Below are positions 7,061-34,804 of a DNA stretch of 35,509 nucleotides, in pieces. Source of the stretch: Metabacillus rhizolycopersici (GTDB taxonomy: Bacteria; Bacillota; Bacilli; Bacillales; Bacillaceae); the NCBI RefSeq assembly GCF_020075705.1, contig NZ_JAIQUM010000057.1, forward strand, positions 1-35,509, given 5' to 3'. The notes under the pieces are model-generated. The model had not been told where the DNA came from. It was given only the letters and a program-made list of their open reading frames with translations, and searched no databases. The stretch's first letter is position 1. Each line of letters opens with the position of its first letter. The position numbers and the translations under genes were made by a program.

Positions 7061-7091
7061 AGAAAGGAGCAGTAAAAAAGGTTTTGCAATT

Positions 7092-7250
7092 TAAAGCGCC
7101 TGAACTAAGTGGTCGAAACTAGCTTAGTTGACGAGGATGGAGGTTATCGAAATTTCGGCGGATGCCTCCCGGCTGATTGGTTACAGCCGTAAGTTTTTCC
7201 TTAAACCAAAGAGGTAACTTTTTGAACAAAGGGAAAAGCGTAGCCTTCCA
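7092..7250 (+). ncRNA. glmS ribozyme (GlcN6P-activated self-cleaving riboswitch)
   Basis: The conserved core is unmistakable: AAAGCGCCTGAACTAAG with the predicted cleavage between A7095 and G7096, a P2-type stem AACTAAG/CTTAGTT, then GACGAGGATGGAGGTTATCG, GGCGGATGCCTCCCGGCTG and the 3' pseudoknot region ending near ACAAAGGGAAAAGCG. In this known class, glucosamine-6-phosphate acts as cofactor for cleavage, and the cut mRNA is degraded, so GlmS is lowered when its product is plentiful. The end coordinate is approximate. Confidence 0.97.
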
Positions 7251-9176: not shown

Positions 9177-9317
9177 AATAAAGTTGTTTAAAAAACGCCA
9201 GTCATGTTATTCAACAATCGGGCGCTATTGTTGAATAAACAACTATATTTTTAACCCCGTCCTAAATTTAGAACGGGGTTATGCTTGTTTGAGCTTTTAG
9301 AATTAAATAACTTTATT
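9177..9317. repeat. MITE-like palindromic repeat, copy 1
   Basis: The element has imperfect terminal inverted repeats: AATAAAGTTGTTTA at 9177-9190 against AATTAAATAACTTTATT at 9301-9317. Inside are a perfect 12-bp stem (9207-9218 with 9227-9238) and the hairpin AACCCCGT/ACGGGGTT (9253-9260, 9273-9280), which may terminate glmS transcription. The right half aligns with copy 2 near 18085-18158 over ~75 nt, with the shared run AATTTAGAACGG. No transposase is present. It looks like a small non-autonomous mobile element; the family is not recognised. Confidence 0.6.
9253..9290 (+). terminator. Hairpin acting as possible glmS terminator
   Basis: AACCCCGT (9253-9260) pairs ACGGGGTT (9273-9280) around CTAAATTTAG, itself a palindrome. 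The following T-run is poor (ATGCTTGTTT), so termination may be inefficient. It lies inside the repeat element described at 9177-9317. Confidence 0.5.
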
Positions 9318-9420
9318 GTCTTTTTACAAAATCTATCTAGAGTAAGGTATTTCTTATTTGACAAATTATGAAAAAAATACATTTAAAACATTCAATCAAT
9401 GCGATCATTTTTTCCTTTCT

Positions 9421-10719: not shown

Positions 10720-11200
10720 AGCTCACTCTGGATAGGTTTTTGTCTTCAAGTGATTACTAAACATCATCGAATGAAAGTAGAAAATAATTTTTAAACAACT
10801 TTATGTTTACACCGCCTAGATTTGAGGACAGTGTAATACGTATTTGAGGTTCCAAATGCATAAAACTTTCTTGTCAATGCACACGAGTGTTTCATCATAT
10901 AAAGTCGTTTAAAAAGCACACGTCTTCGATTACAATAAATGTATTCAAACATGTGTTTTTTTAGTGTCAGAATTTCTAAGTTTAAGCTTCGAGAATTGTT
11001 CAGTACTTGAAAGAAAATCGTGGACAAGGGGAACTCTCTAATTATAAGCCATGGAATAATACTTGAATAAATATTGGCAAAGGGGAAAAGCAATCGACGC
11101 ATTGCTTCCTGACTATAAAAACTCAGGAGCGAAAGGTATGGAAAGGGAAGCTTGTGAAAGAAAATGAGGCAGACAAAGAAAACGCCATTGAGGTGAAGAG
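10720..11200. other. Gene-free stretch with repeat-end sequences
   Basis: No supportable gene is visible. TTAAACAACTTTATG (10791-10805) and ATAAAGTCGTTTAAAAA (10899-10915) resemble the ends of the palindromic repeat at 9177-9317 and face away from each other. The 103-codon frame on the minus strand between them has no ribosome binding site and odd composition, and is left out. The last ~90 nt before malK may hold its promoter, but no clear -35/-10 pair is seen. Confidence 0.5.
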
Positions 11201-12802
11201 ATGAAAAAGGGAAAATGGAGTTTGCAGGCGACTATCACAATTTTTGTGTGCGCTGTAGTAGTTCTTTCGCTATTAATCACTGATTTGCTTATCAGTCAAA
11301 CTGTGGCTGAGAGCATTGAAGACAGTCAGGCTGAAAAAGCGGGAAATGCATCCCGAATGATGGCACGTTCACCACTTGTGATAGAAGCATTGAGCAACCC
11401 GGAAGACGAAAGAGAATTACAAAGATTTGCTAGCGACATACAATCTGTGACAAATGTACAATTTGTTGTAGTAATGGATATGAAGGGAATTCGTAAATCC
11501 CATCCCGATCCCAATAAGATAGGAAAGAGATTTGTTGGGGGAGATGAGGAAGCGGTTTTAAAAGGAAAAGAGCATGTCTCGATTTCAAAAGGTACATTAG
11601 GCCATTCTTTGCGTTCTTTCACGCCGGTATTCGATGCGAATGGAAAGCAGGTAGGAGCGGTAGCGGTGGGCATTTCTCTTGATAAGGTCAATGAAGCCGT
11701 TGAGAGAAGTCATGAGAATATATATGCAGGAACGATCTTTGGTATCTTAACGGGAATTATGGGAGCAGTCATTTTGGCAAGGTATATTAAGAGAATTTTA
11801 TTTGGGCTTGAGCCTATTGCGATTGCAAGGCTGCTTGAGGAGCGAAGTGCCATGTTACAATCAGTACGTGAGGGGATTATAGCAGTAGATCAGGATTCAA
11901 GAATTACTCTTGTAAATAAGGCAGCATTATTGCTTTTGCAAAAAGCGGGTTTAGATGAAAATCCTGTTGGAAAGAAGATAGATGCAACTATAGTTACCTC
12001 AAGGTTAAGTAGAGTATTGCAAACTGGACAAGCTGAATTGGATGAAGAACAAAGCTTAAAGGATGTTGTTTTGCTGGTCAATCGCGTCCCGGTATTTGTA
12101 GACAACAAAATTGTCGGCGCTGTGGCGACATTTCGGGACAAAACGGAAATCCGTCAGCTGGCTGAGCAGCTGACAGGCGTCCGTTTATATGCCGAGGCAC
12201 TTCGAGCGCAGTCCCATGAATTCATGAATAAACTTCATGTCATTCTTGGGATGGTTCACATGCGCTATTATGATAAGCTCGCCACTTATATAAGCGAGAT
12301 TGTCGACAACCGTAAAAATGAAATAGGTTTTATTGCAAGAAAAATAAAAGATCCCGTGCTGGCAGGTTTTTTAATCGGGAAGCTGAGCTATGCGAGGGAA
12401 ACGGGAGCTGAGCTTGTGATAGCATCAGAATTCCCATTGCCTGAACTAGAAGAAGCAGGCATTACACATGAGTTGATTACCATTATTGGAAATCTCATTG
12501 ATAACGCTCTAGAAGCGGTTGAAAACAGTTCATCCAAACGAATTGAAGTCCAGTTGGATTACTTAGATGAAATATTGACATTCGAGGTTAAAGATACAGG
12601 AATGGGCATGAGTGAGCAAATGCAAAACAACATCTTTCAAAAAGGCTTTTCGACAAAAGGAGAGGATAGGGGGTTAGGCTTACATTTGGTGAAGGAGAGG
12701 CTTGAAAAGCTGGCCGGCGAACTGGAAATTTCCTCTATAGAAGGGCAAGGTACTACGTTTGTTGTTTACATACCATACAAAAGTAAAGGTGATGTAAAAT
12801 GA
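11201..12802 (+). CDS. malK: Malate sensor histidine kinase MalK (YufL/DcuS-CitA type)
   Basis: This 533-aa membrane kinase is of the CitA/DcuS class. One membrane helix (about residues 9-31), a periplasmic-type Cache/PAS sensor loop (about 35-170) and a second helix (about 173-195) are followed by a cytoplasmic PAS domain, a SpoB-like phospho-acceptor helix with H339 in QSHEFMNKLH, and an ATPase domain with NLIDNALEAVEN, DTGMGM and RGLGLHLV. GAGGTGAAGAG precedes the ATG. It overlaps the response regulator by 4 nt (ATGA). The neighbouring malate transporter and malic enzymes support malate as the signal, as for MalK-MalR of B. subtilis. It is not the ABC ATPase of the same name. Confidence 0.9.
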   Translation: MKKGKWSLQATITIFVCAVVVLSLLITDLLISQTVAESIEDSQAEKAGNASRMMARSPLVIEALSNPEDERELQRFASDIQSVTNVQFVVVMDMKGIRKSHPDPNKIGKRFVGGDEEAVLKGKEHVSISKGTLGHSLRSFTPVFDANGKQVGAVAVGISLDKVNEAVERSHENIYAGTIFGILTGIMGAVILARYIKRILFGLEPIAIARLLEERSAMLQSVREGIIAVDQDSRITLVNKAALLLLQKAGLDENPVGKKIDATIVTSRLSRVLQTGQAELDEEQSLKDVVLLVNRVPVFVDNKIVGAVATFRDKTEIRQLAEQLTGVRLYAEALRAQSHEFMNKLHVILGMVHMRYYDKLATYISEIVDNRKNEIGFIARKIKDPVLAGFLIGKLSYARETGAELVIASEFPLPELEEAGITHELITIIGNLIDNALEAVENSSSKRIEVQLDYLDEILTFEVKDTGMGMSEQMQNNIFQKGFSTKGEDRGLGLHLVKERLEKLAGELEISSIEGQGTTFVVYIPYKSKGDVK

Positions 12803-13506
12803 TTCGTGTAATGATTGTAGAAGACGATCCAATGGTCGCAGAGTTTAATAAACGTTATTTGGAACAAGTCGGAGGCTTTGAGTTGGTGACTGTATGTTCT
12901 TCAGTAGATCAAGCAATGGGTGTGCTAGAGGAGCAAAGAATCGATATACTTTTATTGGACATTTTTATGCCGGGGGAAAATGGTTTAGCTTTACTTTCAT
13001 ATATCCGGGAGAATGAAAAAGAGATAGATGTCATTGTTATCTCCGCGGCTTCCGATATTGAAAGAATACAGAAAGCTTTGAGGTTGGGAGCAGTTGATTA
13101 TTTAATCAAGCCATTTGAATTTGAACGTTTTAATGCGGCGTTGTCCGCTTATCGAGAAAAAGCGGCATTTATTCAAAATCAGCATGTACTCAACCAAGAG
13201 GAATTAGATCAGCAGATTTTACGTAAAGAAGAAAAACGTCTCCCCGAGGGATTGCCTAAAGGGTTGACACAAGATACATTAAAGATGATTTGGAATGTAA
13301 TCACGGACATAAAAACAGCCCCTTTTTCAACAGAAGATGTGGTAAGCCGTACGGGAATTTCAAGGGTTTCAGTGAGGAAATACCTGAGATTTTTAAAAGA
13401 TATTGAGGTGCTTGATGTTAAAGTGGTTTATGGGATGGTAGGAAGACCGGTTTATCAGCACGAATTCAATAATGCCAAAGGCAATGTAATTAAACATTAT
13501 TTGTAA
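12799..13506 (+). CDS. malR: Response regulator MalR (CitB/DcuR family)
   Basis: This 235-aa protein has an N-terminal receiver domain with acidic pocket E8-D9-D10, phospho-acceptor D54 (LLLDIFMPG) and conserved K104 (LIKPF). A C-terminal helix-turn-helix region (about 155-225; FSTEDVVSRTGISRVSVRKY) is typical of the CitB/DcuR family. It overlaps malK by 4 nt and is followed by a terminator, so kinase and regulator form a two-gene operon. The likely target is the next gene, a malate transporter, and possibly the malic enzymes. I could not define its binding site from the sequence. Confidence 0.92.
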   Translation: MIRVMIVEDDPMVAEFNKRYLEQVGGFELVTVCSSVDQAMGVLEEQRIDILLLDIFMPGENGLALLSYIRENEKEIDVIVISAASDIERIQKALRLGAVDYLIKPFEFERFNAALSAYREKAAFIQNQHVLNQEELDQQILRKEEKRLPEGLPKGLTQDTLKMIWNVITDIKTAPFSTEDVVSRTGISRVSVRKYLRFLKDIEVLDVKVVYGMVGRPVYQHEFNNAKGNVIKHYL

Positions 13507-13533
13507 GCAACCAATTGGCTGCTTACTTTTTTT
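13503..13533 (+). terminator. Terminator after malR
   Basis: GTAAGCA (13503-13509) pairs TGCTTAC (13520-13526). The loop contains CCAATTGG, and a run of seven T follows. It begins inside the malR stop codon. Confidence 0.9.
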
Positions 13534-13625
13534 AATTACAAAAACACTTACATAAGTTAAATAAACTATTCATATTTCTACAAAACTACTAACATAAGGG
13601 TACAAGAAGATAGGAGGTCAGAGAA

Positions 13626-14969
13626 ATGGAACCAGCGAAAAAATTGCAAGCGCTTCCCTATGTGGAGCAAATGGAAGAGAAAAAAGGATTTTTATCTCGA
13701 TTCAATCAATTGAAGGTAGGGGTTATTCCATTACCTCTTTATTTAGTACTAGCGGCTATTGTTTATGCTGCATCTGTATACAATCAGCTCCCGCCAGACA
13801 TGATCGGCGGTTTTGCGGTCATCATGGTGATGGGAATGTTACTCGGAGACATCGGTATGAAAATTCCTATTTTAAAAGACATTGGGGGACCGGCTATTTT
13901 AGCGCTTTTAGTCCCGTCGATTCTAATGTTTTATAACCTGTTTAATCCGGCTGCGGTGGAAGCGGTCACAACATTAATGAAAACGTCCAACTTTCTTTAT
14001 CTTTATATTTCGTGTCTAGTTGCGGGCAGTATTCTTGGTATGAATCGCAAAGTATTAGTTCAAGGGTTTACAAGAATGTTTATTCCGCTTGTTCTTGGAA
14101 CCATTGCCTCTGTTGTTGTAGGTGTATTGGTGGGATCACTTTTTGGATATGAGATGAAGCACACGTTCTTTTATATCGTTGTGCCGATTATTGGGGGAGG
14201 AATCGGAGAAGGTATTCTGCCGTTATCACTAGCATACTCTCAAATTCTAGGGGAGTCTGCTGAATCATTCGTATCCCAGATGATTCCCGCAGCGGTTATC
14301 GGAAATATTATCGCAATTATTTGTGCAGGCTTAATGAAAAACTTGGGTGAGAGAAAACCAGAGCTTACAGGAAATGGCGTATTAGTCAAAACAAAGGGCG
14401 GAGATGGCATCAAAGAAGAAACAAACATCAACAAGCCTGTTGACTTTTCGTTAATGGGAGCAGGTTTACTTATCGCTTGCAGTTTCTTCATTTTCGGCGG
14501 ACTTGCCCATAAATTCCTTGGTATTCCAGGACCGGTTCTGATGATTGTAGCTGCAACATTGGTCAAGTGTCTTAAATTAATGCCGGTCAAAATGGAGCAG
14601 GGAGCATATCATTTGTATAAATTCGTCTCTACAAGCTTAACCTGGCCGCTTATGGTCGGTTTAGGACTTCTTTATATTCCGTTGGAAGATGTAGTGAAAA
14701 TTGTGACGCCGGCTTATGTGGTGATTTGCGCCGCTGTCGTGGTTGCAATGGTAGGAACAGGCTATATTGTCGGAAAATTCATGAAAATGCATCCGGTTGA
14801 TGCTGCGATTGTAACAGGCTGTCACAGCGGTTTAGGCGGAACGGGGGATGTAGCGATTTTGTCGGCTTCCAACCGTATGTCATTAATGCCGTTTGCACAG
14901 GTAGCGACAAGGCTTGGCGGTGCTTCCACGGTTATATTGGCAACGTTGTTAATGAAGCTGTTAAGTTAA
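13626..14969 (+). CDS. maeN: 2-hydroxycarboxylate (malate) sodium symporter, MaeN/CimH type
   Basis: This 447-aa polytopic membrane protein belongs to the 2-hydroxycarboxylate transporter family, whose members take up malate or citrate with sodium or protons. About eleven hydrophobic segments are visible. The two family re-entrant loops with GGxG are present: GGGIGEGILPLS (near 188-199) and CHSGLGGTGDVAIL (near 399-412). AGGAGGTCAG precedes the ATG. It lies between malR and two malic enzymes, which favours malate over citrate as substrate. The 90-bp upstream region is A/T rich and is the likely MalR target. A citrate or citrate/malate transporter cannot be excluded. Confidence 0.9.
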   Translation: MEPAKKLQALPYVEQMEEKKGFLSRFNQLKVGVIPLPLYLVLAAIVYAASVYNQLPPDMIGGFAVIMVMGMLLGDIGMKIPILKDIGGPAILALLVPSILMFYNLFNPAAVEAVTTLMKTSNFLYLYISCLVAGSILGMNRKVLVQGFTRMFIPLVLGTIASVVVGVLVGSLFGYEMKHTFFYIVVPIIGGGIGEGILPLSLAYSQILGESAESFVSQMIPAAVIGNIIAIICAGLMKNLGERKPELTGNGVLVKTKGGDGIKEETNINKPVDFSLMGAGLLIACSFFIFGGLAHKFLGIPGPVLMIVAATLVKCLKLMPVKMEQGAYHLYKFVSTSLTWPLMVGLGLLYIPLEDVVKIVTPAYVVICAAVVVAMVGTGYIVGKFMKMHPVDAAIVTGCHSGLGGTGDVAILSASNRMSLMPFAQVATRLGGASTVILATLLMKLLS

Positions 14970-15035
14970 AAAGCGAATGAATGAACAAAACAAAGCGATG
15001 TATATGAAAGGCTAGTCATAAAGGAGATTTTAACA

Positions 15036-16253
15036 ATGAACGAAACGAAGATTAGGGAAAAGGCATTACAACTGCATAAGCAACTTACAGGGAAATTTGA
15101 AATCGTGAGCAAAGTAGAAATCAATTCGGCTTATGATTTAAGCCTTGCCTATACACCAGGCGTAGCGGAGTCTTGCAAGGTCATTGCTGAAAACAACGAA
15201 GCTTCCTATGAACAAACAGCTCGGAGCAACCTGGTTGCAGTTATTACGGATGGAACAGCGGTATTAGGATTAGGAGATATCGGCCCAGCTGCAGCCATGC
15301 CGGTAATGGAGGGAAAAGCTGTATTGTTCAAGCAGTTTGCAGGAGTAGATGCTTTCCCTCTTTGCCTCGATACAAAAGATGCAGACGAGATCGTTCAAGT
15401 GGTTAAAGCACTGGAGCCAACGTTTGGCGGGATTAACCTGGAAGACATTGCAGCACCACGTTGCTTTGAAATCGAAGAGCGTCTTAAAAAGGAGCTGAAT
15501 ATTCCTGTATTCCACGACGATCAGCATGGAACGGCGATTGTTGTATTAGCGGCTCTCTTAAATGCTTTGAGACTTGTGAAAAAGAAGGCAGGTAAGATTA
15601 AACTTGTTCTTAACGGAGCAGGATCAGCCGGAATTGCGATTGCTAAATTGCTATTAACATCAGGCTTAAAAGATATTACGCTTGTAAGCCTCGAAGGCAT
15701 TCTTTGCCCGGGAGAAGAGTGGATGAATAGCAGGCAAGCTGCGATCGCGGAAGTAACAAATCTACAAAAAATGCGTGGAACATTAGAAGAGGCGATTGAA
15801 GGGGCAGATGTATTTATTGGTGTTTCTGGACCAGGAGCGTTGACTGGCGACATGGTCCAGAAAATGAATAAGGATGCGGTCGTGTTAGCACTGGCTAATC
15901 CAACACCGGAAATTTATCCGGAAGAGGCACTGGCAGCGGGAGCAGCTGTCGTAGGGACCGGTCGTTCCGATTATCCGAATCAGGTCAACAACGTACTCGC
16001 ATTTCCAGGGATTTTCCGCGGTGCTCTCGATGTACGGGCTACAGACATTACAGAGGAAATGAAACTCGCTGCTGCATACGCCATAGCGGAGCTTGTTTCA
16101 GATAGAGAATTGAACGCAGAATATATTATTCCAAACGCTTTGGATAAACGTGTGGCGTCAAGAGTGGCGGAGGCTGTTTCCGAAGCTGCCATTAAATCTG
16201 GTGTTGCCCAAACGTATCGTGTCTCTCAAAAGCAGCTAGAGACAATTGTCTAA
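15036..16253 (+). CDS. Malic enzyme (NAD(P)-dependent), first copy
   Basis: This 405-aa enzyme oxidatively decarboxylates malate to pyruvate in the cytoplasm. It belongs to the short bacterial malic enzymes such as B. subtilis YtsJ. Key residues are visible: catalytic Y39 (LAYTPGVAE), K94 (MEGKAVLFK), the metal/substrate segment [11 protein letters not shown] and the dinucleotide fold [15 protein letters not shown]. After the second beta strand of that fold the residue is Ser (TLVSLEG), where the second copy has Asp; an acidic residue there usually favours NAD, so cofactor preference may differ (inference). AAAGGAG precedes the start. It follows maeN by 66 nt. Confidence 0.93.
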
Positions 16254-16292
16254 TATGAAACGGCTTTAGTTGCAATTTGAGTTCTTTCCCGG

Positions 16293-16319
16293 GAGGTACG
16301 AAGATTTCTTACCTCTTTT
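16293..16319 (+). terminator. Weak hairpin between the two malic enzyme genes
   Basis: GAGGTA-GAA pairs TTC-TACCTC across one mismatch, followed by TTTT. It lies 40 nt after the first malic enzyme gene. It could lower read-through into the second copy or stabilise the upstream mRNA. Confidence 0.5.
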
Positions 16320-16364
16320 GTGAAAATAAATATCTATTAAATTGAATAAAAGGAGAGACAGGAG

Positions 16365-17612
16365 ATGTCCACTTTACGTGAAGAAGCATTAAAGATGCAT
16401 AAGGAAAAACAAGGAAAGCTTGGTGTTCACTCGAAAGTTGCAGTACGCAATGCAAAAGATTTAAGCCTGGCTTATTCACCAGGCGTAGCAGAGCCCTGCA
16501 TAGACATTCACAAAGATGAAAGCAAAGTATATGACTACACCATGAAGGGGAATCTTGTTGCGGTTGTTTCAGACGGAACAGCTGTACTTGGCCTTGGAAA
16601 CATTGGCCCGAAAGCTGCCATGCCGGTTATGGAAGGGAAAGCATTGTTATTCAAATCATTTGCTGATGTGGATGCATTTCCTATTTGTCTGGATACAACT
16701 GACCCAGATAAAATTGTGGAAGTTGTCAAATTATTAGAGCCGACGTTTGGCGGAGTCAACTTAGAAGATATTGCGGCACCACAGTGTTTTGAGATTGAGG
16801 ATCGCTTACGAAAAGCTTGTAATATCCCGATTTTTCACGATGACCAGCATGGCACAGCCATTGTAACCGCTGCGGGGTTAATAAACGCTTTAAAATTAGC
16901 TAACAAAAGGATTGAAGATATTCGTGTTGTAGCAAACGGGGCGGGTGCTGCAGGAGTGGCGATTGTTAAGCTACTTCTTCATATGGGTGTAAAAGATGTC
17001 ATTTTATGTGATACAAAAGGAATCATTTACGAAGGCCGCCCAGTGGGAATGAATCCATTTAAAGAGGAAATGGCCCGCATTACCAATAGAGAGCAAAAAC
17101 AAGGGACATTAGCAGATGCGCTTGTGGGAGCAGATGTATTTGTAGGGGTATCAGCTGCAGGTGCCGTTACGAAAGAAATGGTGCGTTCCATGAATCATGA
17201 TTCAATCATTTTCGCCATGGCTAATCCGGTACCAGAAATTATGCCACAGGAGGCAAAAGAAGCGGGAGCACTGGTAGTAGGAACAGGACGTTCTGATTTT
17301 CCGAACCAGGTCAATAACGTACTCGCATTCCCTGGCATTTTTCGTGGAGCTTTAGATGCTCATGCAAAAGAGATCAATGAAGAAATGAAGCTAGCGGCTG
17401 TTTATGCGATTGCTGGATTAATTGCAGAGGAAGACCTTCATATCGATTATGTCATCCCAGATCCATTTGACCGCAGAGTGGCTGCCTATGTAGCCGCAGC
17501 AGTTGCTGACGCTGCAATGGAAACGGGTGTTTCGCAAAAGCATGTAAATGTAGAAGAAATCAAAAAGAGTCTATTAGCCCTAGCAGAAGAACAACAAGCT
17601 GCTTTTGTATAA
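16365..17612 (+). CDS. Malic enzyme (NAD(P)-dependent), second copy
   Basis: This 415-aa paralogue of the preceding gene is clearly homologous over the full length. Catalytic Y37 (LAYSPGVAEP), K92 (MEGKALLFK), [11 protein letters not shown] and ANGAGAAGVAIVKLL are all present, so it should be active. It has Asp after the second beta strand (ILCDTKG) and a C-terminal extension of ~10 residues. AAAGGAGAGACAGG precedes the ATG. Two adjacent malic enzymes next to a malate transporter point to a dedicated malate-to-pyruvate route, perhaps with one copy feeding NADH and the other NADPH (inference). Confidence 0.93.
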   Translation: MSTLREEALKMHKEKQGKLGVHSKVAVRNAKDLSLAYSPGVAEPCIDIHKDESKVYDYTMKGNLVAVVSDGTAVLGLGNIGPKAAMPVMEGKALLFKSFADVDAFPICLDTTDPDKIVEVVKLLEPTFGGVNLEDIAAPQCFEIEDRLRKACNIPIFHDDQHGTAIVTAAGLINALKLANKRIEDIRVVANGAGAAGVAIVKLLLHMGVKDVILCDTKGIIYEGRPVGMNPFKEEMARITNREQKQGTLADALVGADVFVGVSAAGAVTKEMVRSMNHDSIIFAMANPVPEIMPQEAKEAGALVVGTGRSDFPNQVNNVLAFPGIFRGALDAHAKEINEEMKLAAVYAIAGLIAEEDLHIDYVIPDPFDRRVAAYVAAAVADAAMETGVSQKHVNVEEIKKSLLALAEEQQAAFV

Positions 17613-17676
17613 ACCTGGTTTAAAAACATCGTATTTATTATTTGTTTTATGACAAATAAAGAAATTTAAAAATAAC

Positions 17677-17691
17677 AATAAAGTTGTTTAA
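17677..17691 (+). repeat. Isolated end of the palindromic repeat family
   Basis: AATAAAGTTGTTTAA is identical over 14 nt to the left end of the element at 9177. No matching right end follows before the Spo0E-like gene, so it may be a solo end or the outer left end of a decayed copy reaching to 18158. Confidence 0.45.
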
Positions 17692-17809
17692 TAGTACATG
17701 TGTAAGCGAAAAGATTAAATAAATATAAGTCTTCATCGATCTGTGGATCAGAGAAAGGATTTTGTTAATAACTAATTTAAGATAATGGGTGAGTGATTAA
17801 GGGGGGTGT

Positions 17810-17996: not shown

Positions 17997-18158
17997 CAAT
18001 AAAGTCGTTTGAACATTAACATTATAAACAACTTTATTACCGTTATTTGCGAATTTATCTTCTTGTTACGATCGGAATTAAACAACTTATTTTTTATTTG
18101 ATCTGAATTTAGAACGGTTTTATGCGAGTTTGACACTTCAAAATTAAATGACTTTATT
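17997..18158. repeat. MITE-like palindromic repeat, copy 2
   Basis: The left end CAATAAAGTCGTTTGAA (17997-18013) is inverted against AATTAAATGACTTTATTG at the right (to ~18159). A further inverted end AAACAACTTTATT lies inside at 18026-18038, making a short palindrome with the left end. The right ~75 nt align with copy 1 (AATTTAGAACGG, then TTATGC, then ATTAAAT-ACTTTATTG). The ends of the two copies share substitutions (GTCGTTT here, GTTGTTT in copy 1) that keep each copy's own ends complementary. Confidence 0.55.
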
Positions 18159-18248
18159 GTTACTGTACAGGATTGTTGAAAGACAAAAAGGTTGTGAACT
18201 ATCTTAAATATTGCTAATCAACAATATCCATAAAAAACTTGAACAGGT

Positions 18249-24714: not shown

Positions 24715-24737
24715 CTGACTGCACCTCCTACTACCTT

Positions 24738-24802
24738 ATTTTAATGAATGACGAAAATTATGAAACTGCTTACATTGACCATTAGGGTGGAAAATATTGA
24801 AC
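24738..24802 (-). promoter_or_regulatory. Promoter and operator block of the ABC operon
   Basis: Reading toward the permease genes, a 41-bp block (24802 down to 24762) is followed by -35 GTTTCA (24766-24761), 17 bp, and -10 TAAAAT (24743-24738). The same block with one mismatch and the same spacing precedes the operon at 28496. Within the block TCAAT occurs twice, 22 bp apart in the same orientation, as expected for an AraC-type activator binding two helical turns apart. TGTAAGCAGTTTCA, overlapping the -35, matches 12 of 14 cre positions. Confidence 0.8.
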
Positions 24803-24877
24803 AGACAAAAAATAGACTTATCGATATATGGGACATTTTTTATGTAAAAAGATTCCCAAAAATATGCTATACTAGCG

Positions 24878-24886
24878 TGATATAAT
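24878..24886 (+). promoter_or_regulatory. Extended -10 promoter of the two-component genes
   Basis: TGATATAAT is a full extended -10 element, ~110 nt upstream of the kinase start. No good -35 box is seen, and an alternative TATACT lies at 24868-24873. The predicted leader is ~105 nt and contains the remote Shine-Dalgarno sequence described separately. Confidence 0.5.
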
Positions 24887-24932
24887 TTATTCAGAAAATT
24901 ATAGATGAAATTTTAAGGAAAATATCTTGATG

Positions 24933-24999
24933 AAGGAGAGGGTTGGTTAGTTAAAAAATTAGAATTTTATATACAATGGAAAACTAACCACAACATATG
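24933..24999 (+). promoter_or_regulatory. Remote Shine-Dalgarno and leader hairpin before the kinase
   Basis: The start ATG (24997) has no Shine-Dalgarno in the usual place, and an in-frame TAA at 24985 rules out an upstream start. AAGGAGAGGG lies at 24933-24942. Between them GGTTAGTT (24945-24952) is the exact reverse complement of AACTAACC (24982-24989). Folding this stem would remove 45 nt and bring the Shine-Dalgarno within about 9-13 nt of the ATG. The function is inferred. Confidence 0.5.
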
Positions 25000-26817
25000 G
25001 GATGGAGTATTCGCAAAAAATTAATTATCTTTCTAATGGTCGCAACCATTTTCCCTTTTGGGGCAGCAATTATAATTACGTATTATCAAACGACCGACTC
25101 ACTCAATCAGCATTTTGTTTCAACAACTCATGATGTGATTGAAGATGGGAAAGAAGACATTTCAACATACTTACAAGATTTGGCGTATATGACGACGACA
25201 ATTTATCGGTATACTCCACTAATGAATTCGCTTAGAGATGGGGTATCCAATGATATAGTTAAAAATCAAGAAGAAGTAAAAAGAATACTTGTTTATTTAT
25301 TTAATACAAGGCCTGAAATTGAACAAATGCATCTTTATATTCATAAAGGAAAAGACTCTTATGCGATCTATCATTCAATGTTAAGTGAGCGAGGAAAGTA
25401 TGATAATGTCAATTCCCATCCATACTATTTTCAATTAAGTCAATCTACTAATTTTACAGTGATTGAACCGCCACATGAAATCTATAGTTATAACAATTTA
25501 TCTCTTATTCCAAATTCACAAAAAAAGGATGTATTAAGCTTCCATAATGTCATACGAGACATTCCATCAGATCACCCTTTAGCTTTTTTATCAATAGATA
25601 TTAATCTATCAAAATTAAGTGCAATAGCTGATCGCTTATATTTAAAAGAAACAGAAGATTTTTATCTGATAAATGAAGAAGGCTTGATCGTTTATTCGTC
25701 AGAAGAAAAGTTAATTGGAACAGAGAATAAACAGCAGTGGTTTCAGCAAGTGAAACGGACGTCAGAATCAAGCAAAAGTATGGGATGGAAGGATACGGAT
25801 TTTTCAGGAATTATTGTTTATGAGAAGTTCACCGACTCATTTAAAGACTGGTATATTGTTAAGAGAATTCCTTATGATTCACTTTACCAAGGTGCTAGAG
25901 AAACGGTTTTAACAAACATATTAGTTGGTCTTATCTCCCTTGTTATTGTTCTGTTTGCGACATTGGTCATCTCATTTAAGTTTACTGCTCCGATTAAAGT
26001 ATTGATCGCAAATATGAAACAGGTTGAACAGGGGAAATTTCAAGCTAATTTTGACTCGCTTGGCAACGATGAATTTGGCATGCTAGGTAGGCATTTTAAA
26101 TTAATGCTTGCTAAAATCAATGATTTGATCCAGAGAAAATATAAATTAGAAGTTGAAAATAAATCGTCACAACTGAGGGTATTGCAATCACAGGTTAATC
26201 CGCATTTTCTTTATAATGCTCTTCAATCCATCGGTACTTTGGCGTTAAAGCATAAAGCAGTTCCAGTCTATTCGTTATTAACTGCTTTATCAAAAATTAT
26301 GCGATACAGTATGAATATGAAAGAAGATATTGTCCCACTTACAGCAGAGATACAGCATGTTACATCTTATTTAACTTTACAGAAACAACGATTCGATGAG
26401 CGGTTTGAATTTGAACTGAAGATTCAAAAGGAAGTAGAAGATATCCATGTACCAAAAATGATTTTGCAGCCTCTTGTTGAAAATTGTTTTAAGCATGGGT
26501 TTGATCAGCAGGAGGGGAAATCAATTATTCAGATTGAGGCTTATTTGCAACAAAATGATAGCATTTATCTAACTGTAAAAGATAATGGAAAAGGTGCAAC
26601 TAGTGAGGAATTAAGAGATATTCAAAAGGAATTGTTTGAAGGTATTCGAGAAGACGGAATGCAGAGAGAAGCGATCGGCTTAAAAAATATTTATGATCGT
26701 TTGCAGATTTACTACAGTAATCAGGTGAAAATGTCCGTTAACAGTAATGAAGATAGTGGATTCACAGTTACCATCGTGATGCCTAAGGAAATGAGCAAGG
26801 AGGTGAACCCTTCATGA
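24997..26817 (+). CDS. Sensor histidine kinase, YesM type
   Basis: This 606-aa membrane kinase has helices near residues 8-28 and 303-327 flanking a large extracytoplasmic sensor (dCache-like, about 30-300), then HAMP (327-378), a His_kinase domain with H403 in NPHFLYNALQ, and an ATPase domain (PLVENCFKHGF, DNGKGA). The YesM/LytS class works with AraC-type regulators to control carbohydrate operons. It overlaps the regulator gene by 4 nt. Its place between the transporter operon and the catabolic operon suggests that it senses the transported sugar or the loaded binding protein. Translation may depend on the hairpin in its leader. Confidence 0.93.
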   Translation: MGWSIRKKLIIFLMVATIFPFGAAIIITYYQTTDSLNQHFVSTTHDVIEDGKEDISTYLQDLAYMTTTIYRYTPLMNSLRDGVSNDIVKNQEEVKRILVYLFNTRPEIEQMHLYIHKGKDSYAIYHSMLSERGKYDNVNSHPYYFQLSQSTNFTVIEPPHEIYSYNNLSLIPNSQKKDVLSFHNVIRDIPSDHPLAFLSIDINLSKLSAIADRLYLKETEDFYLINEEGLIVYSSEEKLIGTENKQQWFQQVKRTSESSKSMGWKDTDFSGIIVYEKFTDSFKDWYIVKRIPYDSLYQGARETVLTNILVGLISLVIVLFATLVISFKFTAPIKVLIANMKQVEQGKFQANFDSLGNDEFGMLGRHFKLMLAKINDLIQRKYKLEVENKSSQLRVLQSQVNPHFLYNALQSIGTLALKHKAVPVYSLLTALSKIMRYSMNMKEDIVPLTAEIQHVTSYLTLQKQRFDERFEFELKIQKEVEDIHVPKMILQPLVENCFKHGFDQQEGKSIIQIEAYLQQNDSIYLTVKDNGKGATSEELRDIQKELFEGIREDGMQREAIGLKNIYDRLQIYYSNQVKMSVNSNEDSGFTVTIVMPKEMSKEVNPS

Positions 26818-28391
26818 AAGTATTACTTGTTGATGATGAAAAACATGTTCGTGAAGGAATTATGTTACTTGGAGAATGGGAAAAGTTCGGGATTGAAACC
26901 ATTTATGAAGCAGAGAACGGTGCAGAAGCTATTAACTTCATACAAAAGTTTCAACCTGAAATTATTTTTACGGATATGAAGATGCCGAAAATGGACGGCA
27001 TTCAACTTTTAGAATGGATGAAAGAACATTATCCATATTGCAAGACGGTCGTGTTAACCGGATATGATGATTACCACTATATGAGAAAGGCTATTCACTA
27101 TGGCAGTGTAGATTATCTGTTAAAGCCAATTGATCCGGAAATCCTGAATACGACGTTGGAACATGCCTTAGCTGAATGGAAAAAGGAAGAAGCAATTCGT
27201 AAGAAAAATAAAAGTAGCTCTCAATTAATCAATAAAATGAAACCTGCTTATCGTGATCGAATGCTAACCCAATTAATGAACAATGAGTCAATGAAGGAAA
27301 ATTTGTATGAAGAATTTGGTTTTCAAGTTTCTCAGTCCTATACGGTAGCACTTGTGAAAGTAAGCGGGAAGACAATTGGTGAATTTCATGGAGATCGAAA
27401 TCTAGCATATTTCACGATATTGAACGTTATTAATGAAATATTGACTGAGAATGAATGTGGGACAGGCTTTCGCTATTTATCAAATAAAGGTGAAATTATT
27501 ATCATCTTTTGGAAAAAAATCGAGCAGATCGAAGAATTACTTAAAAGTATGTATAAACAGTTGAGAAAGACGTTTAACATATCTTGTCCGATTGCTTTAG
27601 GAGAATCTGTTAATAAGATTTCTGAACTATTAGAATCCTATAGCCGTGCAAAACACGTTATTTTAAACAGTAATATATTGGACGAAAAAGGTGAAAGAGT
27701 CTATTTACAAGAAATTAAGTCAGAAACAGCTTTACCCAATTTAATGGGGTATGCTTCTGAAATAGAACTAGCTGTGCAAGCTGGTGAAATAGGAGCATTT
27801 GAGGAAATGATTGAAAGAGTGACGAAGGAATTGAAAGAAAGTAGATTTTTATCGTTAAAGCTTTTGTTAAACTTTGAAAAGGAATATCAGGTCATATGTA
27901 ATCGATGGCTTAAGAAATATCAATTATCGTTCTCTGTGGTAGAAAAAGTTGAAAAACAAATTGATCCTTACTTTGATCAAAACGGTTCCTTTCAATTCGA
28001 AAAATATATCGAGAGGAAAAAACGGGAAATCTCACTCTTTTTGAAGAAAGTGAAACGGGGCTCAGGAAAGAAAAATACTAACATCATTTACGAAATTGAA
28101 ACGTATCTTCAAGAGAACTGCAATAGAGATGTAAAGCTCCAAGAGATAGCGGAGCAATTCTATTTAAGTAGAGAATATATCTCAAGGAAATTCAAACAAG
28201 AATTTAATGTAAATATATCAGACTATGTAGTGAAGATTCGTATGAACAAGGCGAAAACATTACTAAAAAACAGTCAATTAAAAATTTACGAAATTGCCGA
28301 AATGATAGGGTATCAAGATGACAAATATTTCCGCAAAGTCTTTAAAAGGATTGAGGGAGTTACTCCCAATGAATACCGCACATCCTGTTAG
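26814..28391 (+). CDS. Response regulator, YesN type (receiver plus AraC domain)
   Basis: This 525-aa protein has a receiver domain with D8-D9 and phospho-acceptor D54 (IFTDMKMPKMDG), a conserved Lys in YLLKPID, a long middle region (about 130-415), and a C-terminal AraC/XylS domain (about 425-522) with two helix-turn-helix units, the second containing IYEIAEMIGYQDDKYFRKVF. It overlaps the kinase by 4 nt. The repeated 41-bp block upstream of both flanking operons is its probable binding site, and the right-hand copy begins at the last base of this gene's stop codon. Confidence 0.93.
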   Translation: MKVLLVDDEKHVREGIMLLGEWEKFGIETIYEAENGAEAINFIQKFQPEIIFTDMKMPKMDGIQLLEWMKEHYPYCKTVVLTGYDDYHYMRKAIHYGSVDYLLKPIDPEILNTTLEHALAEWKKEEAIRKKNKSSSQLINKMKPAYRDRMLTQLMNNESMKENLYEEFGFQVSQSYTVALVKVSGKTIGEFHGDRNLAYFTILNVINEILTENECGTGFRYLSNKGEIIIIFWKKIEQIEELLKSMYKQLRKTFNISCPIALGESVNKISELLESYSRAKHVILNSNILDEKGERVYLQEIKSETALPNLMGYASEIELAVQAGEIGAFEEMIERVTKELKESRFLSLKLLLNFEKEYQVICNRWLKKYQLSFSVVEKVEKQIDPYFDQNGSFQFEKYIERKKREISLFLKKVKRGSGKKNTNIIYEIETYLQENCNRDVKLQEIAEQFYLSREYISRKFKQEFNVNISDYVVKIRMNKAKTLLKNSQLKIYEIAEMIGYQDDKYFRKVFKRIEGVTPNEYRTSC

Positions 28392-28455
28392 TTCAATATT
28401 TTCCACCCTACTGGTCAATGTAAGCAGTTTCATTAATTCGAACATTCTCTAAAAT
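28391..28455 (+). promoter_or_regulatory. Promoter and operator block of the catabolic operon
   Basis: The block at 28391-28431 equals the reverse complement of 24762-24802 except for one base. It is followed by -35 GTTTCA (28427-28432, overlapping the block), 17 bp, and -10 TAAAAT (28450-28455). The first gene starts at 28496. The weak -35 fits an activated promoter, and the same cre-like TGTAAGCAGTTTCA (28419-28432) overlaps it. The block begins inside the TAG stop of the regulator gene, so no spare sequence separates them. Confidence 0.8.
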
Positions 28456-28495
28456 AAAGATAAGGAGATTAACTTTAATAAGGAGTGAATAGATA

Positions 28496-29229: not shown

Positions 29230-30264
29230 ATGAAAAAGCTAAGAGTCGGAGTGATCGGTTGCGGAAGTATTGCACAGCATCGTCATTTGCCAGAATATGT
29301 TGCGAATAAGAATGTTCAGCTTGTTGCCGTATGTGACATCAATGCAGAACGTGCAAAAGAAGTAGCGGGAAAATACGAAGTTACGGCTTACACTAGCTAT
29401 GAAGATTTATTGCGTAGTGGGGAAGTGGATGCAGTAAGTGTATGTACACCAAATTATCTTCATGCCCCTATTTCAATTGCAGCTTTAGATACAGGAGTAC
29501 ATGTTCTTTGTGAAAAACCGTTGGCAACTTCTAAAGAAGAAGCTGAAGCAATGATTTCAGCTGCTAAAAGAAGTGGTAAAAAATTAATGATCGGTCATAA
29601 TCAACGCTTTGTATCGTCTCATCAAAAAGCACGTCAGCTAATTCATAGTGGAGAAATTGGTAAAATTTACAGTTTTCGTACCGCATTTGGCCATGGTGGA
29701 CCAGAACAATGGAGTGTCGAAGGAAAAGAGGGTTGGTTTTTTCAAAAGGAAAAGGCCTTTATTGGTGCAATGGGTGATTTAGGCGTTCATAAAGCAGATT
29801 TACTCAGGTTTATACTTGGGGAAGAAATTACAGAAGTAGGAGCATTTGTTGAAACAAGTGCGAAAGACTTCGCGGATGTGGATGACAATGCTGTTTGTGT
29901 CTTAAAAACAGAAAGCGGTATCATCGGTACACTTGCTGCAAGCTGGGCTTATGTAAGTAAGGAAGATAATTCAACGATTATTTATGGAGAAAAGGCCATT
30001 CTACGTTTAGAAGATGATCCAATTAATTCACTAATCGTACAATATGCAAACGGTGAAATCGTAAACTATCAGCTTGGAAAAATTCAGTCTAATGATGAGG
30101 GCGGGCAAAATAACTCATTTGTAGTGGAGAAGTTTGTGGATTCCGTTCTTAATGATCAAGAGCCACCAGTTAGCGGTGAAGAAGGTATGAAATCTTTAGA
30201 GGTTATTTTAGCCGCGATCGAATCGAATGAAACAAGAAAAATTATAAAAGTGCAGGCGATGTAA
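29230..30264 (+). CDS. Gfo/Idh/MocA-family dehydrogenase, first copy
   Basis: This 344-aa NAD(P)-dependent oxidoreductase has an N-terminal Rossmann fold with GVIGCGSIAQHRH (residues 7-19), the family E95-K96-P97 triad in CEKPLATS, and the C-terminal substrate segment GDLGVHKADLLRFILG. Members oxidise or reduce sugar hydroxyls, often at C3. GGGGGAATAATT precedes the start. It lies directly after the ThuA-like gene, so it is the better ThuB analogue of the two. The direction of the reaction and the substrate are inferred only from context. Confidence 0.88.
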   Translation: MKKLRVGVIGCGSIAQHRHLPEYVANKNVQLVAVCDINAERAKEVAGKYEVTAYTSYEDLLRSGEVDAVSVCTPNYLHAPISIAALDTGVHVLCEKPLATSKEEAEAMISAAKRSGKKLMIGHNQRFVSSHQKARQLIHSGEIGKIYSFRTAFGHGGPEQWSVEGKEGWFFQKEKAFIGAMGDLGVHKADLLRFILGEEITEVGAFVETSAKDFADVDDNAVCVLKTESGIIGTLAASWAYVSKEDNSTIIYGEKAILRLEDDPINSLIVQYANGEIVNYQLGKIQSNDEGGQNNSFVVEKFVDSVLNDQEPPVSGEEGMKSLEVILAAIESNETRKIIKVQAM

Positions 30265-30266
30265 TT

Positions 30267-31304
30267 GTGACTAAACTACGAATTGGGATAATTGGTGTTG
30301 GCGGTATTGCACAAACACGCCATATCCCTGCCTTTCTTGAGTTAAGTGACCAGTGTACAATTACGGCTCTAAGCGATGTGAATCTCGACCGGGCGAAAGA
30401 AGTAGCCGAAACATACAATATTCCTTATGTGTTCAAGGATTACCAAAACCTCTTTTCCCATGTGGATGCCGTATGTATTTGTACTCCAAATAAGTTCCAT
30501 GCTGAAATATCAACTGCCGCATTTGAGGCTGGAATTCATGTAATGTGTGAAAAACCAATGGCCCTTAGTGTGAAAGAATGCGAAGCTATGATTTCTGCCT
30601 CAAAAAAAGCGAATAAAGTCCTTGCGATTGCCTATCATTATCGTTTCATGAAAGAATCTCAAGCAGCAAAAAGCGCGATGCAGGAAGTCGGTACGCCACT
30701 TGTGGCAAGAGTTCAAGCGTTAAGACGCCGCAAAGTGCCAGGCTGGGGTGTTTTTACCAATAAAGAGCTTCAAGGAGGCGGAAGCTTAATTGACTACGGA
30801 TGTCATCTTCTTGATCTAGCCCTTTGGTTAATGGGAAATCCCAAACCCATTGCTATATATGGGAGTACGTATAATCGATTAAGCAAAACGCCAAATCAAG
30901 TAAATTTATGGGGGGCATATGATCATGAGACATTTAATGTCGATGATCATGTAACAGCTTATATTAAATTTGAAAATGGTGCTTCCATGTTATTTGAAAC
31001 ATCCTGGGCAGCGAATATAAAAGACGACAAAGAGCATGTTAGCATTTCAGGCGTTGACGGTGGTTTAAACGTTTTTCCTTTTGAAATGTATACAACAAAA
31101 AATGGAATGTTGTTAAACAGTGAACCGGCATGGCTCCCTGGTCACGAAGACCCTGCAATGCCGCAGGCAAAAAACTTTATAGATGCTTGCCTCGAGAAGG
31201 TTCCACTTATTGTTCAGCCTGAAGGGGCCCTTCAAGTATCACAAATTATTGAAGCCATCTATGAAAGTCATGATTCTATACAAGGGGAAGGGGCACGAAA
31301 ATGA
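30267..31304 (+). CDS. Gfo/Idh/MocA-family dehydrogenase, second copy
   Basis: This 345-aa protein has the Rossmann motif GIIGVGGIAQTRH, E95-K96-P97 in CEKPMALS, and LIDYGCHLLDLALWLMG. It is a distant paralogue of the preceding gene, with a different substrate domain. The start is GTG, 2 nt after the previous stop codon, without a strong Shine-Dalgarno, so it probably depends on coupling to upstream translation. Two such dehydrogenases in one operon allow an oxidation at the start and a reduction at the end of a pathway with no net NAD change (inference). Confidence 0.88.
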   Translation: MTKLRIGIIGVGGIAQTRHIPAFLELSDQCTITALSDVNLDRAKEVAETYNIPYVFKDYQNLFSHVDAVCICTPNKFHAEISTAAFEAGIHVMCEKPMALSVKECEAMISASKKANKVLAIAYHYRFMKESQAAKSAMQEVGTPLVARVQALRRRKVPGWGVFTNKELQGGGSLIDYGCHLLDLALWLMGNPKPIAIYGSTYNRLSKTPNQVNLWGAYDHETFNVDDHVTAYIKFENGASMLFETSWAANIKDDKEHVSISGVDGGLNVFPFEMYTTKNGMLLNSEPAWLPGHEDPAMPQAKNFIDACLEKVPLIVQPEGALQVSQIIEAIYESHDSIQGEGARK

Positions 31305-32345: not shown

Positions 32346-33443
32346 ATGGCTGAGTTACGCTTAGAAAATATTTATAAAATTTATGATAAAAATGTTACAG
32401 CAGTGGAGGATTTTAATCTTCATATTCAAGATAAAGAATTTATTGTCTTCGTAGGCCCATCAGGGTGTGGAAAATCGACTACTCTTCGTATGGTTGCAGG
32501 TCTTGAAGAAATCTCAAAAGGTGATTTCTATATCGATGGCAAACGTGTCAATGACGTAGCACCAAAAGATCGCGACATTGCGATGGTCTTTCAAAACTAC
32601 GCATTATATCCCCACATGAGCGTATATGACAACATGGCATTCGGTTTAAAACTACGTAAATTTCCAAAAGATGAAATCGATCGCCGTGTACAAGATGCTG
32701 CTAATATTCTTGGGTTAGAGCAATATTTGAAGCGTAAACCAAAAGCTCTTTCAGGTGGGCAACGGCAACGTGTTGCTTTAGGTCGTGCGATTGTCCGAGA
32801 TGCAAAAGTATTTTTAATGGACGAGCCGTTATCAAACTTAGATGCAAAACTTCGTGTGCAAATGCGCTCTGAAATTGCTAAATTACACCAAAGACTACAA
32901 ACGACAACTATTTATGTCACACATGACCAAACAGAAGCGATGACGATGGCCTCTCGCCTTGTCGTCATGAAAGATGGGATTGTTCAACAAGTAGGTGCAC
33001 CAAAAGAAGTGTATGAAAAACCGGAAAACGTATTTGTTGGTGGCTTTATTGGCTCTCCTTCGATGAACTTCTTTAAAGGGACGTTGAAAGATGGCGTCAT
33101 CCAAATTGGTCAACTAAACATTGTAGTGCCGGAAGGGAAAATGAAGGTATTACGTGATCAAGGCTATGTGAATAAAGAAGTCATTTTAGGCATTCGCCCA
33201 GAAGACTTACATGATGAGCCTGTGTTTATTGATTCATCACAAGCCACAACAGTAAATGTCAAAGTAGACGTAGCAGAATTAATGGGCGCTGAAACAATGA
33301 TTTACTCACAAATTAGTGGTCAAAGTTTTGTAGCGCGTGTGGATGCTCGTACGGAAGTAAAACCAGGCCAGCAATTAGCATTAGCTTTAGATATGAACAA
33401 AGCTCACTTCTTCGATACAGAAACAGAGCTTCGCATTCGCTAG
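32346..33443 (+). CDS. Carbohydrate ABC importer ATPase, MsmX/UgpC type
   Basis: This 365-aa ATPase powers CUT1-type sugar importers. Walker A is GPSGCGKST (37-45), signature LSGGQRQ (135-141) and Walker B VFLMDE (155-160); the C-terminal regulatory region (about 240-365) has the TOBE-type ILGIRPEDLH segment. AAAGGGGGAAAATTCA precedes the ATG. The transporter operon at 21538-24714 lacks an ATPase, so this is its likely partner, made under the same regulator. In Bacillus one MsmX often serves several importers, so this copy may also be shared. It follows the isomerase gene by 76 nt. Confidence 0.93.
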   Translation: MAELRLENIYKIYDKNVTAVEDFNLHIQDKEFIVFVGPSGCGKSTTLRMVAGLEEISKGDFYIDGKRVNDVAPKDRDIAMVFQNYALYPHMSVYDNMAFGLKLRKFPKDEIDRRVQDAANILGLEQYLKRKPKALSGGQRQRVALGRAIVRDAKVFLMDEPLSNLDAKLRVQMRSEIAKLHQRLQTTTIYVTHDQTEAMTMASRLVVMKDGIVQQVGAPKEVYEKPENVFVGGFIGSPSMNFFKGTLKDGVIQIGQLNIVVPEGKMKVLRDQGYVNKEVILGIRPEDLHDEPVFIDSSQATTVNVKVDVAELMGAETMIYSQISGQSFVARVDARTEVKPGQQLALALDMNKAHFFDTETELRIR

Positions 33444-33790: not shown

Positions 33791-34804
33791 ATGATGACGA
33801 ATGTTTTAATTGGGGTGGATTTAGGTGGTACGAGCACAAAGCTAGCATTTATTGATGAAAACGGCCATTTTCTAAACAAATGGGAAATTGAAACTGATAA
33901 ACGCGATTCTGGAAAGTATATTCTATTAAATATCGTAAATTCTATAAGTGAAAAAGTGAAAGAACTAAAGATAGAACGCGAGCAATTAATTGGCATTGGA
34001 ATAGGTGTTCCTGGTCCCGTTAACTTTGAAACTGGTTTGGTGTATCAATGTGTAAATCTAGGATGGGGAGAAACACAAGTAAAAGAAATTCTTGAAAAAG
34101 AGACAGGGATCCCAGTTGTCGTTGATAATGATGCAAATGTTGCTGCTATCGGTGAAATGTGGAAAGGCGCAGGAAAAGGAACGAAAAATATGATTTGTGT
34201 CACTCTTGGCACTGGTATTGGCGGCGGTGTAATTATGGATGGTAACATTGTTCATGGTGTAAAAGGTGCTGGCGGTGAAATAGGGCACATTGTGTCAGTC
34301 ATGAATGATGGTTTTACTTGTAATTGTGGGAAAAAGGGATGTTTAGAAACAGTTGCATCCGCATCTGGGATTTCCCGTCTAGCGATAGAAGCAGTTCGTA
34401 AGACAAAAAGAGATAGCAAGCTAAAAGAATGGTATGAAAAGAGAAACCAATTAACAGCAAAAGATGTATTCGATGCATTACACGAGGGAGATCAGCTAGC
34501 AGAAGAGATTGTAGAAAATGTAACAAAGTATTTAGGTGTAGCGTTGGCCAATATTGGTAGCCTATTAAACCCTGAAAAAATTGTGATTGGTGGTGGGGTA
34601 TCTGCAGCAGGTAATGCGTTATTAGCCCCATTAAATCACTACTTTAATCAGTATACTTTTTCAACAGTTCGAATTAGTACGATGTTAGTACTTGCTACAT
34701 TAGGTAATGATGCTGGTGTTATCGGAGGAGCGTACTTAGCAAAAACCTACGGTGATCATATTAGAAAGATTAAGCATAACTCCTATATTAAAGAATTGAC
34801 TTAA
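33791..34804 (+). CDS. glcK: ROK-family glucokinase
   Basis: This 337-aa protein phosphorylates glucose with ATP. Seen are the phosphate loop D10-LGGTSTK, catalytic D114 in VDNDANVAAIGE, GTGIGGGVIMDG, and the ROK zinc site H166 (GEIGH) with C177-x-C179-x4-C184 followed by LE, typical of glucokinases. GGGAGG ends 6 nt before ATG 33791; a second ATG follows at once. It is separated from the sugar operon by a terminator and a mobile element but has the same orientation, and it would act on glucose released by that pathway. B. subtilis GlcK is ~320 aa. N-acetylglucosamine or another sugar kinase is less likely. Confidence 0.87.
   Translation: MMTNVLIGVDLGGTSTKLAFIDENGHFLNKWEIETDKRDSGKYILLNIVNSISEKVKELKIEREQLIGIGIGVPGPVNFETGLVYQCVNLGWGETQVKEILEKETGIPVVVDNDANVAAIGEMWKGAGKGTKNMICVTLGTGIGGGVIMDGNIVHGVKGAGGEIGHIVSVMNDGFTCNCGKKGCLETVASASGISRLAIEAVRKTKRDSKLKEWYEKRNQLTAKDVFDALHEGDQLAEEIVENVTKYLGVALANIGSLLNPEKIVIGGGVSAAGNALLAPLNHYFNQYTFSTVRISTMLVLATLGNDAGVIGGAYLAKTYGDHIRKIKHNSYIKELT

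Follow-up and report, generated by a model that had tools for sequence, protein, structure and literature searches.

A 41 bp block in mirror image around yesM/yesN of Metabacillus rhizolycopersici as the probable operator of its YesN-type regulator

A stretch of 35,509 nucleotides from Metabacillus rhizolycopersici (contig NZ_JAIQUM010000057.1, positions 1 to 35,509; henceforth the window) was analysed for a 41 bp block that occurs twice around the genes of a two-component system, yesM (24997–26817, plus strand) and yesN (26814–28391, plus strand). The left copy (24762–24802, minus strand) is oriented towards the operon of an ATP-binding cassette (ABC) importer, the first gene of which, here termed permA, was identified by domain search as an ABC permease (PF00528; 23746–24714, minus strand). 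The right copy (28391–28431, plus strand) is oriented towards a catabolic operon that starts with a ThuA-domain protein (PF06283; 28496–29218, plus strand; domain search), annotated as PalA in some relatives. To judge from related bacteria, in which the site accompanies this regulator, the block is very probably the binding site of the adjacent YesN-type response regulator, and we hold it highly likely that it is the operator through which YesN activates both operons.

The right copy is the reverse complement of the left copy with one mismatch. The longest inverted pair returned by a repeat finder for the window comprises 24736–24807 and 28386–28457 (72 nt, 85% complementary). With the base composition of the window, the number of 41 bp inverted pairs expected to show one mismatch or none is about 1e-13. 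Exact inverted repeats of the window reach a length of 22, a value attained by one of 40 simulated sequences when palindromes were counted too. The mirrored arrangement, with one base different, had been described in a first-pass annotation of this DNA, and both the repeat finder and a reading of the sequence bear it out. The same annotation placed the start of the right copy inside the stop codon of yesN. The position is true, base 1 of the block (28391) being the final base of the TAG stop, and it is incidental, as in relatives the distance between yesN and the second site can reach about 50 kb.

Each block contains TCAAT twice, 22 bp apart from start to start. The first, promoter-distal half-site of the left operator lies at 24796–24800 and the second, promoter-proximal one at 24774–24778 (both minus strand); in the right operator they lie at 28393–28397 and 28415–28419 (both plus strand). 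The pair and its spacing, noted in the annotation, were found again in the sequence and are conserved in relatives. The explanation offered there, that 22 bp is the spacing of the two helix–turn–helix (HTH) units of one AraC domain, was corrected. Within one such domain the two HTH units contact adjacent major grooves, at a distance of about 10 bp, and Escherichia coli AraC at araI1–I2 binds as two monomers to a direct repeat with a 21 bp period just over the −35 box, where it activates; 22 bp therefore fits two monomers on a direct repeat and not the HTH pair of a single domain. As a repeat in itself the 22 bp period is modest, the halves of the consensus agreeing at nine of the 14 first positions and at nine of 19 overall, and the case for a direct repeat is made by TCAAT and by the conservation of the period. 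The block therefore shows, abutting the −35 box, a direct repeat whose period is close to 21 bp.

At each copy the sequence GTTTCA-N17-TAAAAT can be read, as the annotation had it, and both operons point away from yesM and yesN. The −35 box GTTTCA overlaps the end of the block (24761–24766, minus strand, for the importer operon; 28427–28432, plus strand, for the catabolic operon) and is followed by the conserved −10 box TAAAAT (24738–24743, minus strand, and 28450–28455, plus strand, respectively). The −35 box is poor, sharing three of six letters with TTGACA, and a promoter scan of the window that required at least four of six letters listed neither of the two promoters. Both observations are expected for activator-dependent promoters.

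To follow the block through relatives, one genome per species was scanned with an alignment of 35 YesN proteins, which yielded 75 loci (from the best 80 of 148 matches). A strict site was defined by a score of at least 29 of 34, and lower-scoring sites were excluded from the alignments. These comprised 48 sites on the transporter side, 17 on the PalA side and seven others, the window contributing one site to each of the first two groups and loci the other 47 and 16. In 53 of the 75 loci YesN shows 49.5% identity or more across half its length or more; 47 of these 53 have a strict site before permA, which in 45 lies between permA and a divergent yesM. In each of the remaining six (L038, L040, L041, L042, L045 and L050) a relaxed match precedes the gene of the binding protein, and the site before permA scores 26 of 34 in L042 and L045. 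GTTTCA and the −10 box are separated by 17 bp in 39 of the 48 transporter-side sites, all 17 PalA-side sites and five of the seven others. Mean information is 0.2–0.3 bits per column upstream of the block, 1.76–1.77 over its 41 columns (48 transporter-side and 17 PalA-side sites), 0.86–0.93 in the 17 bp spacer, 1.4–1.9 in the −10 box and 0.45–0.58 downstream. This profile over 48 and 17 sites backs the suggestion of the annotation that selection acts on a site. A recent large duplication is ruled out because the flanks outside the block and the promoter differ.

The near-identity of the two copies in the window is a separate matter. Two sites of one genome differ at one position in the window and at two to six in 29 other genomes (median four over all 30), and four spacer columns account for most of the differences. 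On the transporter side the most frequent spacers have TG at their end, and 22 of 30 PalA-side spacers end in T; the PalA-side spacer of the window ends in TG and is of the transporter type. The right copy may thus have been lately overwritten by the left through gene conversion in this strain, an event that would be compatible with the operator function and would bear only on how the two copies became so alike. We consider it doubtful, since the promoter flanks differ and the PalA-side site of L054 also ends in G, so that chance could have produced the same ending.

Co-occurrence of site and regulator was assessed over whole genomes in the 193 genomes available from the taxonomic family of G004. 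The site is present in 56 of them, once in 17, twice in 37 and three times in two; in 34 of the 37 two-site genomes the pair lies on one contig and points outward, 3.7–53 kb apart. The genomes of 40 of the 75 loci each hold one to three sites (40 of 40). As a control the reversed pattern was searched, with no match in the 193 genomes or in the 40 locus genomes. A YesN of at least 50% identity is encoded in 51 of the 193 genomes, and the site is present in 51 of these 51 against five of the other 142 (Fisher p 2e-41, a value inflated by shared ancestry). Three of those five keep yesM with a compact or cut-off yesN region: in G040 and G142 a compact YesN (256 and 262 amino acids, respectively) carries receiver and AraC domain in one frame, and in G173 the contig ends inside yesM. 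Genome G050 has a remnant with a truncated binding protein, and only G150, considered below, is left unexplained. The view that this YesN has a motif and regulon of its own is supported by this distribution and by the one to three copies in the 40 locus genomes. That the regulon consists of two operons, as had been proposed, would fit the window and is not universal, given the genomes with one, two or three sites and the other target genes described next.

Relatives of permA with at least 73% identity have a site upstream in 51 of 51 cases among the 193 genomes, and the distance from the start of the site to the start of the permA match is 83–94 bp in 50 of the 51. PalA was found at E <= 1e-80 in 101 of the 193 genomes, and in 36 a site lies directly before it, also when PalA is distant from yesN; 33 of these 36 encode a YesN with 50% identity or more, and G142, G150 and G173 make up the rest. 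In 20 stretches that are distant or unlinked, the site directly precedes PalA in 16. Over all loci, with duplicates removed, 118 distinct sites were obtained: 59 stand before permA, 39 before PalA, nine before a GH13 gene and three before a binding protein of a second type. A binding protein of the window type, a sugar kinase, a TIM-barrel gene and a PalA remnant with an oxidoreductase behind it have one site each in front; four were not assigned automatically, of which three lie before permA on reading the locus and one is the remnant of G050. The second site of relatives can thus serve a GH13 gene or a different ABC transporter. Mesobacillus foraminis has three sites, at permA, GH13 and PalA; in L075 and L111 the GH13 gene comes after the PalA-type module, and the window has no GH13 gene.

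The idea that the site belongs to PalA and not to the regulator was rejected. Thirteen genomes have PalA of at least 83% identity and no YesN of at least 50%; nine of them lack a strict site, and three of the four that have one (G040, G142, G150 and G173) hold yesM and parts of yesN. Eight of the nine were read (G179, with PalA split over two contigs, was left aside), and in seven the best score in the stretch examined was 19–21 of 34. In G178 a decayed site (27 of 34) with TAAAAC as its −10 box precedes PalA, and the best YesN is 26% identical (L158, near 2602, minus strand).

A trace of the operator extends to deeper relatives. For these a relaxed core, TCAnnATnTTnCAC-N6-GnTCAA, with 15 fixed letters, was used. 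Each of the 17 divergent Bacillaceae loci examined has a match of 13–15 of 15, as have nine of 11 Paenibacillus and Cohnella loci. YesN of these 11 loci is 31–35% identical, and the nine carry a similar TCA-N19-TCA site at the equivalent position. The core lies just upstream of yesM and reads away from it in eight of the nine; in L073 the place is similar and the search found no yesM. A TATACT- or TATAAT-like −10 box lies downstream of the core. The reversed core had no matches in the same 11 loci, against nine forward matches scoring 13 or more. There is little change in the first recognition helix, which fits SREY[IV]SR[KR]FKQ in 16 of the 19 regulators compared. Two of the exceptions, L044 (last residue K) and L053 (SKEH), have sites, and the third, L064 (SREN), has none; L065, likewise lacking a site, is outside these 19.

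Taken as an operator, the block suggests the following course of events. YesM would sense an extracellular sugar, alone or through a binding protein, and would then phosphorylate YesN. Two YesN monomers may bind the block in head-to-tail orientation, each occupying one of the two TCAAT half-sites with their 22 bp spacing. Bound at about −72 to −31 relative to the expected transcription start, beside the weak −35 box, YesN would recruit RNA polymerase to two promoters, that of the ABC importer and that of the intracellular catabolic operon; in many species the catabolic operon would be activated in addition to the importer operon. In place, spacing and promoter quality the site is like araI1–I2. 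The systems differ in that E. coli AraC binds the sugar itself and has a 21 bp period, whereas here the receiver domain would be phosphorylated and the period is 22 bp.

Several findings weigh against an operator of this kind. The two halves form an imperfect direct repeat, and the AT-rich consensus also matches itself at other offsets, with 12 of 31 positions for a shift of 10 bp and 11 of 32 for one of 9 bp. The distance to the −10 box is other than 17 bp in nine of the 48 transporter-side sites and two of the seven others. One subgroup, of Niallia type, has a 23 bp period at sites before GH13 (L044:11651, L146:8555 and L148:5870), with one additional base between the TCAAT elements and the remainder nearly intact; a further, less perfect site with this period precedes GH13 at L043:11659. 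The co-occurrence test was uncorrected for phylogeny. PalA is not an obligatory target: the 51 genomes with YesN divide into 33 with a site before PalA, 16 with PalA and no adjacent site and two with no PalA match, and in L018, L024 and L029 PalA is linked to yesN, yet no site is found at PalA. Genome G150 (L124, L131) has a strict site before PalA, and its nearest YesN is 42% identical and located elsewhere. For the deeper relatives, the core was composed after weak matches had been seen in these loci, so that its score is partly circular, while the constant place is independent; L064 and L065 are without the core.

Some of these points would suit other explanations of the block. Because it overlaps the −35 box in both operons, YesN might act there as a repressor that masks the −35 box until the signal arrives; we judge this unlikely, given the poor −35 box at the aligned sites and the prediction that three of five AraC-type two-component regulators of Caldicellulosiruptor are activators (PMC8579813, as far as the text consulted goes). 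A different transcription factor, encoded elsewhere and sharing its phylogeny with YesN, might also bind the site in place of YesN, and the site of G150 beside a YesN of only 42% identity would agree with this. It seems very unlikely, however, when the site is present in 51 of 51 YesN genomes, has decayed in G178, which has no close YesN, and is kept with the two compact YesN proteins. Two near-identical inverted copies in the window could also mark a repeat element, mobile or copied, that plays no part in regulation. The annotation had named dozens of copies at unrelated loci as the sign of such an element; each of the 193 genomes has zero to three copies, and these stand at a fixed distance in front of a few related genes and have unrelated flanks, which leaves this explanation a negligible probability. 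An RNA element was ruled out, as the block lies upstream of a conserved −10 box and has no Rfam match there at gathering thresholds.

With the block as the operator of YesN, a wider proposal can be made, to which we give an even chance: one operator code may unite a regulon of exchangeable parts, so that in different Bacillaceae the same 41 bp site would serve the PalA oxidative module, a GH13 alpha-glucosidase that acts by hydrolysis, the two together, or another importer accompanied by a sugar kinase. This code would follow the first recognition helix as far as Paenibacillaceae (31–35% identity), and the middle part of YesN, of about 280 residues, would be dispensable for reading DNA, as natural compact YesN proteins still keep the site. 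The compact proteins are encoded at L075:10001–10771 (256 amino acids) and L127:2872–3660 (262 amino acids); the middle of about 280 residues is absent from both, with differing junctions. Their close relatives are P0242 (97%) and P0243 (87%). Proteins P0245–P0336 are a broader set of receiver-plus-AraC regulators, mostly of 234–263 amino acids, from Cytobacillus, Sutcliffiella, Exiguobacterium and others, about 50–62% identical to the compact YesN.

The sugar sensed is probably an alpha-glucoside, perhaps maltose-like. This is suggested by the solute-binding protein of the importer operon (PF01547; 21538–22830, minus strand; domain and structure search), whose closest solved structure, 9xor (461 bits), is named maltose-binding protein by its depositors, together with the alpha-glucosidases that are the closest solved relatives of the GH13 protein. 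Among these relatives, structures with the name alpha-glucosidase rank before those of oligo-1,6-glucosidase, and the GH13 protein has Ala after the catalytic Asp, which marks the alpha-1,4 type. Isomaltose, suggested by the GH13 gene, is no longer favoured on these two grounds. Against NCBIfam, the best model for four GH13 proteins was the phosphotrehalase equivalog, under its cutoff; they scored above the cutoff of the phosphotrehalase subfamily model.

To our knowledge, Gram-positive soil bacteria have many YesM/YesN pairs, and a DNA site has been assigned to few of them. Here the proposed operator is precise and searchable, its target genes can be named in dozens of species, and it points to an alpha-glucoside. 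Relatives provide natural experiments in the form of a regulator that lacks the middle part, an operator in decay in the absence of the regulator and a repeat that is one base longer. Within Bacillaceae, XynDC and AraPST of Geobacillus stearothermophilus are reportedly systems in which an AraC-type response regulator controls an oligosaccharide ABC importer; they differ in serving, as is said, xylo- and arabino-oligosaccharides, and the likeness was drawn without comparison of site sequences. The closest precedent in kind is in Caldicellulosiruptor bescii, where, in the parts of the paper available, five two-component regulators with AraC-type domains have predicted sites of tandem direct repeats, three of them upstream of promoters and hence predicted to serve activators (PMC8579813). 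The systems of that paper, of which AviRS, MosSQ, AxeRS and GxgRS are named, likewise have a sensor kinase and response regulator beside an ABC sugar importer; they belong to another organism and other sugars, and were likened without comparing operator letters (PMC8579813). CuaR of Ruminiclostridium cellulolyticum (with CuaS and CuaD) is, in the portion consulted, a YesN/AraC-family protein of 538 amino acids with a receiver, a long middle and an AraC domain, encoded beside a disaccharide importer; it differs in its sugar, cellobiose, and the main text of the paper contains no promoter or binding-site term (PMC10384115). Candidate motifs have been computed for the YesN-type regulators RR07 and YesN of pneumococcus; in the text available, that of RR07 is CTWWWWWWAG and YesN has no clear repeat, so neither equals the present operator (PMC11034029). 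The open-access literature, as far as its text was available, contained no report of this operator, regulon or exchange of modules; this scope is without figures, RegPrecise pages and papers under subscription. Systems of this kind are thus known from the Caldicellulosiruptor precedent, and this site and gene set appear to be new.

YesM has the domains of a sensor kinase (HAMP, His_kinase PF06580 at 1.4e-24 and HATPase_c PF02518 at 2e-9), with dCache under its cutoff. YesN has a receiver (Response_reg, PF00072, 2.9e-25), a GGDEF_2-like middle and a C-terminal AraC HTH pair (HTH_18, PF12833, 2.9e-20); D54 and K104 are invariant in the 35 aligned sequences, and the protein of the window is identical to one of Metabacillus litoralis. 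A second ABC permease (PF00528; 22919–23746, minus strand) lies between permA and the solute-binding protein gene. On the other side, domain search assigned two Gfo/Idh/MocA oxidoreductases (29230–30264 and 30267–31304, plus strand) and a sugar isomerase-like TIM barrel (PF01261; 31301–32269, plus strand), so that ThuA, the oxidoreductases and the isomerase stand side by side as in ThuA/3-keto-type glycoside catabolic operons. Such operons presumably oxidize the sugar at C3 by an oxidoreductase, and the same is predicted here. They are followed by an MsmX/UgpC-like ABC ATPase (32346–33443, plus strand; domain search), a candidate ATPase of the importer that may be in the same transcript, and by a ROK-family protein (33791–34804), a possible member of the operon.

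Elsewhere in the window, a glmS ribozyme (7084–7249) lies immediately ahead of a gene with SIS and glutamine amidotransferase domains. The stretch 283–1517 holds a 5S rRNA gene and then ten tRNA genes, with a weak match to the Bacillaceae-1 RNA between them (661–725). A sensor kinase with sCache_3_2 and PAS domains, a response regulator, a 2-hydroxycarboxylate transporter and two tandem malic enzymes occupy 11201–17612, probably a locus for malate or citrate uptake. Around the transporter and malic enzyme region lies a diverged repeat family (61–79%), with members at 9262–9328, 10817–10883, 18103–18169 and 17660–17692.

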